Shown: in pieces, positions 53,458 through 54,929 of the stretch
How the letters are laid out: each line of letters starts with the position of its first letter
Position numbering within the stretch: position 1 is the stretch's first letter
Origin: Microbacterium paraoxydans
GTDB taxonomy: Bacteria > Actinomycetota > Actinomycetes > Actinomycetales > Microbacteriaceae
Direction of reading: 5' to 3'
Length of the DNA: 64,000 bases
Assembly: GCF_900105335.1 (NCBI RefSeq)
Contig: NZ_LT629770.1
Location: 2,604,001-2,668,000 of the forward strand
The notes under the pieces: generated by a model
The model's database searches: none
What the model was told of the DNA's origin: nothing
What the model saw: the letters and a program-made list of their open reading frames with translations, nothing else
Position numbers and translations under genes: made by a program

Positions 53458-54759
53458 CTACGGCGTAAGGCGATGGACGTCGCGCGGGAACAGCGTCACC
53501 TCGCGGACGTTGGCCGCCTCGACCAGTCGGCCCACCCAGCGCTCCAGTCCGATCGCGAAGCCGCCGTGCGGAGGCATCCCGTGCGCGAACGCCTCCAGGT
53601 AGCCGGCGTACCTCGAGGGCGATTCGCCCCGCGCCTCGATCGCGGCGACGACCTCGCTGTGTCGATGCAGCCGCTGTCCGCCGGTCACGAGCTCCAGACC
53701 CCGGAACAGGAGGTCGAAGCTGTTGCTCCACTCCGTGTCGTCGGGCTGCGGGTGCGTGTAGAACGGACGCTTGCGCATCGGATACCCCTCGACGGCCAGC
53801 ATGTCGCTGCCGAACTCCTCCTTCGCCCACGCCCCGAGCGCCCGCTCGTGCGCCGGGGAGAGGTCGGGCTCGTCGGCCGGAGCCCCGACCCGGCGCAGCG
53901 CGTCGCGGAAGTGCACGACGGGGATGTCCTCGGGGATGACGGGGAGCGTCGCGTCGAGCAGCGCGAGCTCTTCCGCTGCGTCGGCGCGGATGCCGTCGAG
54001 CATGCCTCGCAGCACGTGGCCGAGGAGTCGCAGGACGTCGCGGTGGTCGCGGATGAACCCGAGCTCGACGTCCAGCGACACGTACTCCGACAGATGCCGC
54101 ACGGTGTCGTGGGGCTCGGCCCGGAAGACCGGCCCCACCTCGTGGACGCGTTCGAACACGCCGACGAGCTGCTGCTTGTAGAACTGCGGGCTCTGCGCGA
54201 GGTACCCGGTCCTGCCGAAGTAGTCCACGGGGAACACGTTCGCCCCCGACTCGGTCACGGTGTCGACGATCTTCGGGGTCTGCACCTCGGTGAAGTCCGC
54301 AGCGTCGAGCACCCGGCGGAACGCCCGCACGCTCGCCGCGGCGATCTGCCAGGTCGCGCGGCGTGCGGGGTGGCGCCAGGTCACCGCCGCGTGGTCGAGC
54401 AGAGTCGGAAGGCTCGTCTCGAGCGTCGGGCGCCACAGCTCAACGACCGGCGGTGCAGCCGGCTCCGACAGGCTCTCGATCTGCGGGTCGACGATCTCGA
54501 CGCCGCCGGGGGCCTGCGGGTTCGCGGCGACGGTCCCCGTCACGCGGACCACCGTCTCCTCCGGAGGGAGGCCGTCCGTCGGAAGCTCGGCGGCACGGAC
54601 GACGACCTGGGCGAGGCCCGAACGGTCGCGGATGATCAGGAACGCGACGGTGGCGAGTTCCCTCCGTCGATGGACGTGACCGAGCAGCATGACACGGCGG
54701 CCGGGGGTGGCCTCGGCGAGCTCCGCGGCGAGAGTGCGGGCGGGGTCGGGTGATCTCAT
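53458..54759 (-). CDS. aspS: Aspartyl-tRNA synthetase, archaeal (short) type, probably non-discriminating
   Basis: Class II synthetase, 433 aa, so it lacks the GAD insertion of the ~590-aa bacterial AspRS and matches the archaeal/eukaryotic-like form. N-terminal OB-fold (about 10-100, GHVHRRRELATVAFLIIRDRSG in part). Motif 2 is VFRAEPHDTVRHLSEYVSLD and motif 3 is GFAIGLERWV. Such second AspRS copies often charge both tRNA-Asp and tRNA-Asn; whether this one does is not visible. The ATG at 54759 has a perfect GGAGGAG, but that site is sequestered in a hairpin belonging to a T-box leader. Confidence 0.92.
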   Translation of the reverse strand: MRSPDPARTLAAELAEATPGRRVMLLGHVHRRRELATVAFLIIRDRSGLAQVVVRAAELPTDGLPPEETVVRVTGTVAANPQAPGGVEIVDPQIESLSEPAAPPVVELWRPTLETSLPTLLDHAAVTWRHPARRATWQIAAASVRAFRRVLDAADFTEVQTPKIVDTVTESGANVFPVDYFGRTGYLAQSPQFYKQQLVGVFERVHEVGPVFRAEPHDTVRHLSEYVSLDVELGFIRDHRDVLRLLGHVLRGMLDGIRADAAEELALLDATLPVIPEDIPVVHFRDALRRVGAPADEPDLSPAHERALGAWAKEEFGSDMLAVEGYPMRKRPFYTHPQPDDTEWSNSFDLLFRGLELVTGGQRLHRHSEVVAAIEARGESPSRYAGYLEAFAHGMPPHGGFAIGLERWVGRLVEAANVREVTLFPRDVHRLTP

Positions 54760-54761
54760 TT

Positions 54762-54922
54762 CTCCTCCAGGTTGTGGGAGCCCTGGAGGTGTGGGCGGGG
54801 GCCAGATCGCGGTGCCACCACACCTTCGCCGGTGAGAAGCCGGCCTCTCGTCGGTACGCCGGACGCGCGGGGACCGCCTGCACGGAGGCCGGGGGTCGTC
54901 ACGCCCCGGCGGTCGCCGCGTC
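54762..54922 (-). promoter_or_regulatory. T-box riboswitch (translational) in the aspS leader
   Basis: On the minus strand, Stem I is CGCGG-c-GACCGCC paired with GGCGGTC-c-CCGCG, with an inner hairpin whose loop is CGTGACGAC and contains the Asp codon GAC (54898-54900). A second stem GCCGG/CCGGC follows. The T-box is AAGGTGTGGTGGCACCGCG (54808 on). Its UGGC can pair with the GCCA end of a tRNA whose discriminator is G, as in tRNA-Asp and tRNA-Asn. GGTGTGG can pair with CCACACC (antisequestrator). Alternatively CCTCCAGG (54782-54789) pairs with CCTGGAGG (54764-54771), hiding the ribosome site. There is no T-run, so control is of translation, as in actinobacterial ileS leaders. Confidence 0.85.
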
Positions 54923-54923
54923 C

Positions 54924-54929
54924 AGTCTA
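54924..54929 (-). promoter_or_regulatory. -10 box of aspS leader transcript
   Basis: Minus-strand TAGACT, giving a start near 54917-54920, right at the base of Stem I. The -35 region (TGTGGA) is weak. Confidence 0.5.

Follow-up and report, generated by a model that had tools for sequence, protein, structure and literature searches.

One published scheme (PMC10482949) divides T-box riboswitches into four classes: those with a long Stem I, an interdigitated T-loop motif (IDTM) and Stem II; a glycine class without Stem II; a class with a short Stem I; and an intermediate class. As described there, members of the short-Stem-I class carry the specifier in an apical loop of 5-6 nt and require Stem II, and the IDTM, the S-turn of Stem II or the two together strengthen the binding of tRNA. 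Function without a kink turn (K-turn) is put as an open question in a second account (PMC7583486). Here we describe a leader at positions 54757-54929, minus strand, of a 64,000-nt stretch of Microbacterium paraoxydans DNA (hereafter the window), which lies upstream of aspS2, a gene for an archaeal-type aspartyl-tRNA synthetase (AspRS). Its sequence makes it very likely that the leader is a genuine T-box acting on translation, and that it functions as a riboswitch. That it represents a fifth T-box architecture seems to us an evenly balanced proposition. Such an architecture would be Asp-specific and translational, with a bare specifier hairpin set in a three-way junction and without IDTM, Stem II/S-turn or K-turn; it would have evolved by stepwise loss among the leaders of one synthetase family, occurring also on a different AspRS type.

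Conservation of the T-box elements

Read along the minus strand, the leader opens with the hexamer TAGACT, followed by a hairpin whose loop contains GAC and by a block rich in purines. Stem III and the T-box core come next, then an anti-Shine-Dalgarno strand, the sequence GGAGG and finally the AUG of aspS2, which starts at 54759. All elements named in the initial annotation, which had called the leader a translational T-box, are present in this sequence. A search of 366 genomes of the genus found aspS2 in 28 (E≤1e-150), and all 28 loci carry UGGC and a UGAC loop. The 17-nt T-box pattern GGTG[CT]GGTGGCAC[CA]GCG (GGUGUGG-UGGCACC-GCG at 54824-54808 in the window) matches every one of them without a mismatch, which, together with the covariation described below, bears out the T-box identity. 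The Asp codon that the annotation had placed in a hairpin loop is the GAC at 54900-54898, in the apical loop of helix P2; UGAC is invariant there in the 24 distinct genus leaders and in all 30 sequences of a wider set that reaches other families, as is UGGC in that set. The wider set contains the distinct genus leaders except L127, L131 and L149 (21 of 24), a Promicromonospora leader and eight loci of other families. Stem III (54828-54844) is flanked by GAGAG and GAA in 24/24 distinct genus leaders, comparable to the RRRxG-StemIII-AA discriminator motif given in PMC7583486, and three of its six pairs show two-sided changes. The proposed match of UGGC to a G discriminator also held, since tRNA-Asp(GUC) has G73, the base that UGGC requires; tRNA-Asn(GUU) has G73 too, plus U1-A72.

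Beyond the genus, we compared 80 related loci, 78 of which have the gene start within the contig. A T-box core (at most 1 mismatch, within 400 nt upstream) precedes 64 of the 78 genes, including 39 of 40 actinobacterial ones, while the same pattern was found in 3/78 controls taken inside genes and in 11/78 reversed leaders. In class-wide and order-wide scans, in which some organisms repeat earlier loci, 31 of 32 loci have the core at no more than 2 mismatches. At L209, a partial gene match without the core at the expected place, the covariance model described below (R1) places a leader farther upstream on the same contig.

The Stem I junction and its relatives

The alignment of the 24 distinct genus leaders was folded with RNAalifold, and the consensus contains P1, P2 (its 9-nt loop holding the specifier), P3, P4, Stem III, a register-shifted antisequestrator and the sequestrator. 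In the window, P1 is a basal helix (54917-54910 with 54876-54870) that closes a three-way junction, with the specifier hairpin P2 at 54890-54908 and the variable third helix P3 at 54877-54889; P4 is a small CGC/GCG hairpin inside a conserved block (54857-54867). When the canonical antisequestrator is used, 97.1% of 766 alignment cells are paired. Two-sided changes occur at 13 pairs and in 74 cells (7.1 and 18.6, respectively, in shuffled alignments, with 0/500 shuffles as high), and moving the pairing partners by 1-3 columns lowers the paired cells to 42-50%. In further pair types, the alignment does not exceed the shuffles (28 compared with 26.7; 156/500 as high).

In P1, six of the seven pairs have two-sided changes in the genus (13 of 500 shuffles reach that pair number). 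These changes involve 42 cells, as compared to 11.3 in shuffles, and the covariation score is 0.658 versus 0.230 (0/500); the pair types are 14 versus 12.0, with 51/500 as high. In the 30-sequence set, all seven P1 pairs show two-sided changes and 88.6% of P1 cells are paired, while P2 is 98.9% paired with two-sided changes at two of its three pairs. Taken together, P1 and P2 are 91.7% paired in that set, nine of ten pairs change on both sides, and all five measures exceed those of all 500 shuffles. P3 has two-sided changes at two of three pairs in the genus. The covariation thus supports a predicted three-way junction of P1, P2 and P3. The initial annotation would have been refuted by missing covariation in related leaders, or by loss of the GAC loop and UGGC there; both covariation and conservation were observed. 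P4 is 100% paired and almost invariant, hence uninformative.

An outermost Stem I helix that had been proposed in the initial annotation, GGACGCG/CGCGUCC, was rejected: it occurs in near relatives of the window (e.g., L127, L128 and L131), but is absent from the genus consensus, and L133, L138 and L144 are without it. The helix directly follows a TANNNT match, the -10-like hexamer TAGACT (54924-54929), and since the strand GGACGCG adjoins this hexamer, much of the helix is probably not transcribed. In all genus leaders but L131 (27 of 28), TANNNT begins 25-29 nt 5' of the specifier UGAC. Transcription would start approximately 7 nt 3' of TAGACT, at the 5' end of P1 (∼54917).

In a crude motif test, none of the 28 genus leaders has an IDTM, S-turn or F-box motif; this test missed some long leaders elsewhere, and its S-turn matches in L217 and L221 and specifier match in L220 were judged false on reading. 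A Stem II helix is likewise missing from the genus consensus fold. Calling the leader a short-Stem-I example is right as to Stem I but incomplete, since it leaves out the three-way junction in which Stem I ends and the want of a recognisable Stem II. The junction sits where other T-boxes have the K-turn, and secondary structure is compatible with a K-turn-like geometry there.

Relatives of the leader were sought with R1, a covariance model of the window architecture whose automatic structure kept P1, P4, Stem III and the shifted antisequestrator and lost P2 and P3. In the window's own genome, R1 finds a single strong site (125.9 bits; the next best of 15 scores 18.2 bits at E 0.66). Among 388 genomes of the class, 17 were matched (E≤0.01), and the nine matches of at least 49 bits are each full-length. 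Of these, seven lie upstream of aspS2 genes and two upstream of bacterial-type aspS (L226 in G136, 107.8 bits; L227 in G710, 98.4 bits), both of the latter with UGAC and the same T-box core. The presence of the same RNA before bacterial-type aspS argues strongly for Asp sensing, and because R1 finds leaders before both gene types, the reduced T-box follows AspRS function and not one gene family. One of the two (L226) has a similar three-way junction fold with a wholly different P1, UGUUCG/CGAACA; in L227, P1 was looked for and not found. Both L226 and L227 also have an apparent extra hairpin over an AAAGGA Shine-Dalgarno sequence, in place of CCUCC/GGAGG. The eight weaker matches include long-type aspS2 leaders, a T-box upstream of serS with UCC at the specifier position (L234, in G637), and a 27-bit match (L239) with no T-box core, which we treated as chance.

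Outside the genus, architectures were assigned by reading and not by a covariation test. In many aspS2 leaders there (Kribbella, Nonomuraea, Micromonospora, Chloroflexi), Stem I is long and contains AGAGAG...GCUG, and the specifier loop is GAAGAC. Since such long-Stem-I leaders precede the same gene elsewhere, the window element has canonical-looking relatives. Those of the Kribbella type show no visible Stem II, yet are not glycine T-boxes. Two further leaders, L196 and L043, combine a short Stem I with an S-turn-like strand of Stem II. Reduced leaders before aspS2 are of two kinds, namely those with a short Stem I, a K-turn-like loop and an IIA/B-like element but no Stem II (L007-L009, L217-L220 and L222), and those in which a short Stem I is followed directly by Stem III (L015 and L221). 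The related leaders thus seem to hold intermediates, with long or short Stem I and each with and without Stem II, and because these stand before related aspS2 genes, the loss of T-box parts could be studied within one gene family. In four Micromonosporaceae leaders (L021, L026, L036 and L064), a palindromic repeat (AAGGGCCCC...GGGGCCC...TTAACA) seemingly lies inside Stem II.

The strongest competitor to a reduced architecture is that the leader is an ordinary class III T-box of the Nocardia farcinica ileS type in which Stem II has merely diverged, P3 or P4 being a disguised Stem II or IIA/B and the junction a by-product of the alignment. We consider this unlikely, although an ultrashort Stem I and a sequestrator are what class III has, and P4, possibly a remnant of Stem IIA/B, occupies the place expected for that element. 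The ileS T-box of the same genome (G000:C1:655695-655880, minus strand; L117) is class III-like by eye, with a short Stem I, an AUC specifier, and the S-turn-like AGUAGAA and CCCGUCA in the expected order. In the aspS2 leader, by contrast, P1 encloses P3 and covaries strongly. P3 differs greatly in length among relatives, being longer in some, and none is visible by eye in L192, which is outside the genus. The motif test speaks against a disguised Stem II as well, as do L007-L009 and L015, in which Stem I is short and a Stem II cannot be recognised by eye, and an apical loop of ∼9 nt where class III has 5-6.

Switching, tRNA specificity and proposed mechanism

The canonical antisequestrator spans 54788-54824, and consists of helix A1 (54824-54818 with 54794-54788), the bulge UGGCACC (54817-54811) and helix A2 (54810-54808 with 54797-54795). 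In the genus it is 100% paired, with nine of its ten pairs constant and the remaining one varying on one side. The sequestrator, CCUCCAGG/CCUGGAGG, pairs 54789-54782 with 54771-54764 (span 54764-54789) and is part of the consensus fold. It covers the Shine-Dalgarno sequence GGAGG at 54768-54764, in agreement with the earlier proposal that the ribosome site is sequestered. Because this hairpin is present and there is no U-run, control would be exerted at the translational level. In computed folds of the 3' domain without tRNA, the sequestrator pairs have probabilities of 0.89-0.99 and canonical A1 of 0.05-0.12. The best computed structure without tRNA has an energy of −37.8 kcal/mol, and in it the T-box UGG is paired in the register-shifted helix.

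We think it probable that the leader senses tRNA-Asp and is a translational T-box with a reduced architecture, working as follows. The transcript would begin almost directly with P1, and the junction of P1, P2 and P3 would present GAC to the anticodon of tRNA-Asp. Uncharged tRNA-Asp would pair its G73-C-C-A end with UGGC and so fix the antisequestrator in the canonical register. The antisequestrator would then capture the first two C residues of the anti-Shine-Dalgarno strand, loosening the sequestrator and allowing translation of aspS2. When the tRNA is charged or absent, the 8-bp sequestrator would retain GGAGG, and the register-shifted helix would pair the T-box UGG. What the sequences show is conservation, the covariation of the junction and Stem III, the specifier and discriminator match, the presence before two AspRS types and the absence of IDTM and S-turn motifs in the motif test; tRNA binding and the direction of switching, like the translational level, the transcription start and the physiological role, are inferences. 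Since aspS2 is a second AspRS gene, its likely role would be that of an emergency or backup enzyme, for failed charging by the housekeeping AspRS or for Asp shortage.

A variant of this scheme is that the leader senses tRNA-Asn as well as tRNA-Asp, and so monitors both products of a non-discriminating AspRS. In its favour are the shared G73 and the U1-A72 pair of tRNA-Asn, an archaeal-type AspRS nearest to the Thermus non-discriminating enzyme, and a genome with no asnS over the cut-off. The leader would have to read tRNA-Asn by pairing GAC with the anticodon GUU through a G-U wobble at the first position, but the specifier is GAC and never AAC in 30/30 aligned leaders, and specifiers that avoid wobble pairing are favoured according to the TBDB account (PMC7778990). 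We therefore regard sensing of tRNA-Asn, and equally the wobble route to it, as quite improbable. The annotation's further idea, that tRNA-Asp would report for tRNA-Asn too if the enzyme is non-discriminating, is a conjecture; both AspRSs look non-discriminating by sequence, both tRNAs have G73, and no asnS scored over its cut-off.

Several points weigh against the reading as a reduced tRNA-Asp-sensing T-box. The shuffle controls ignore relatedness, so that more weight belongs to the slide control and to the finding of as many as five pair types at a single pair. P1 is imperfect in several members from outside the genus, P3 is weak in the window, and both the antisequestrator and the sequestrator are near-invariant in the genus, so that comparison there tells little either way. 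The absence of Stem II and a K-turn holds at the level of motifs and secondary structure and not of three-dimensional structure, where P3 or P4 could mimic them. There is no T-box core upstream of 14 of the 78 related genes, which are mostly non-actinobacterial but include L019. The backup role is argued from gene content.

The switch itself belongs among these points. Two mutually exclusive helices had been proposed, and both helices are present, but their exclusivity in the genus is weakly supported because the canonical antisequestrator and the sequestrator overlap by only 2 nt (C54789-C54788). A mixed state, with the antisequestrator and a 6-bp remainder of the sequestrator, comes out as stable in the computation (−32.1); Stem III with either full helix alone gives −22.4 or −25.7 (the latter with the full sequestrator) and is less stable than the mixed state. 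In several other genera, read by eye, the sequestrator CACCUCC/GGAGGUG overlaps A1 by 4 nt (CACC). The ribosome, stacking, or a candidate helix X are options for opening the last six sequestrator pairs in the genus. Helix X (54779-54803) would pair GGCCC in the apical loop of the antisequestrator (54803-54799) with GGGCU (54783-54779), and at least 4 pairs in a row can form in each of the 47 distinct leaders compared. Its covariation is weak (398 of 20000 permutations as high overall, and 3278 of 20000 when each genus contributes a single sequence). Helix X is possibly an OFF-state pseudoknot, and we do not claim it as a proven one, since what support the permutations give is weak and disappears once each genus is represented by one leader.

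Finally, the Rfam scan that had been suggested as a check gave no T-box match, either at the gathering score or at E≤10, where it returned three unrelated chance matches only. The T-box model RF00230 is a poor test for short T-boxes, because the ileS T-box of the same genome also scores only 25.1 of 93 bits, and since it misses the aspS2 leader, short T-boxes of this type are probably under-counted. The single-sequence folding energy is unremarkable (z −0.48) and was set aside as evidence, since the minimum free energy and centroid folds also disagree. The Rfam and z-score results would suit a conserved GC-rich leader without tRNA sensing (e.g., with an intrinsic or protein-controlled sequestrator), but this is hardly credible beside the exact T-box core, the invariant UGAC, the Stem III flanks, the covariation, and the long Stem I and GAAGAC of same-gene leaders in other genera.

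The AspRS genes and comparison with known systems

The gene aspS2 (53458-54759, minus strand) encodes a predicted non-discriminating AspRS of 433 aa. Its archaeal type, as first annotated, is borne out by NF003483 'aspartate--tRNA(Asn) ligase' (523.9 bits, cut-off 353); it scores 343.4 bits against TIGR00458 (aspS_nondisc), under the cut-off of 368.4 for that model. With 398.6 bits, the best-scoring solved chain is 1n9w, AspRS2 of Thermus, which is of archaeal type and non-discriminating. In the anticodon-binding domain, aspS2 has the aligned H and P of 1n9w and 1wyd, where 3nel has W and K; H and P at these places are residues of the non-discriminating type. What the annotation left out is that aspS2 is a second, accessory AspRS gene beside a bacterial one (AspRS1; G000:C1:2715771-2717510, 693.8 bits). 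The latter contains a DHGG stretch, as is typical of non-discriminating bacterial AspRSs, and by these sequence features both enzymes look non-discriminating. GatB is found in the same 3.55-Mb genome (G000). A search of this genome for asnS gave nothing over the cut-off, its four matches being aspS2, the bacterial aspS (in two pieces) and one place of 76.7 bits.

In wider samples, the gene occurs in 21/394 genomes class-wide and 14/297 order-wide (E≤1e-110, the own genome being counted in both). Genes terC and gntR both flank aspS2 in 10 of 38 loci compared (L126-L134 and L006), the flank available in most being ∼1.5 kb. With such short flanks, horizontal spread of the locus is no more than plausible, and a backup enzyme on a mobile island was set aside as a reading. 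One genome (G841; L218 and L222) has two aspS2 copies with near-identical T-boxes, and a TAG within one copy.

Of 148 genomes searched, 53, all of them members of the window's genus (L096-L115 and 33 more), have a different archaeal-type AspRS (412-437 bits). These 53 genomes are missing among the listed matches of 161-186 bits given by bacterial AspRSs, which would fit a replacement of the housekeeping enzyme. Upstream of this other AspRS, no exact T-box core occurs within 500 nt in 20 loci, and there is one 1-mismatch copy at −469.

If the aspS2 leaders do bind tRNA, they would be the smallest such tRNA reader known to us and would call for a new class, as they appear to lack the IDTM, Stem II S-turn and K-turn and yet are strongly conserved. 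A second AspRS inducible by tRNA-Asp would also be of interest for studies of AspRS inhibitors. We know of no T-box for the second, non-discriminating AspRS (ND-AspRS2) of Thermus and Deinococcus, and that of Clostridium acetobutylicum reportedly has a two-codon Asn/Glu specificity; the aspS2 leader, unlike the latter, has GAC, sequesters the Shine-Dalgarno sequence and belongs to an actinobacterial host. As described in PMC4206432, T-box control in C. acetobutylicum is likewise tied to an additional AspRS (the extra AspRS/GatCAB), and ND-AspRS2 is the same type of enzyme as aspS2 encodes and is also a second AspRS beside a bacterial one. Thermus and Deinococcus also have an asparaginyl-tRNA synthetase according to that source, for which the window genome gave no gene over the cut-off.

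A shortened T-box without conserved stems has been proposed, and doubted, for the his operon (hisDCB) of Corynebacterium glutamicum in the account of PMC3896937. Also actinobacterial, the aspS2 leader differs in that it keeps Stem III and the T-box core, with a structure backed by covariation. As in class II (Bacillus subtilis glyQS), there is no Stem II, but that class has a long Stem I and an IDTM and is glycine-specific in the description of PMC10482949, whereas the Stem I here is minimal and the specificity Asp.

Class III (ileS of Nocardia farcinica and Mycobacterium) is the closest. Shared features are a short Stem I without IDTM, the specifier in an apical loop, the UGGN bulge, Stem III, the antisequestrator, a Shine-Dalgarno sequestrator and an actinobacterial host. 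Unlike class III ileS, the aspS2 leader is predicted to sense Asp and not Ile and has the P1/P2/P3 junction and the larger apical loop (the 5-6 nt of class III being as given in PMC10482949), with no Stem II/S-turn, no recognised IIA/B F-box and no K-turn in the consensus fold. RF00230, which gives the ileS T-box of the same genome 25.1 bits, does not match it. In the literature that we searched, no Asp-specific actinobacterial T-box came up, nor any accepted T-box in which IDTM and Stem II are both missing, and the nearest case is the his element of C. glutamicum; Gutierrez-Preciado 2009, Sherwood 2015, Vitreschak 2008 and the TBDB tables were outside that search, and Asp specificity may already be listed in earlier surveys or TBDB. 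The new part, we think, is the architecture.
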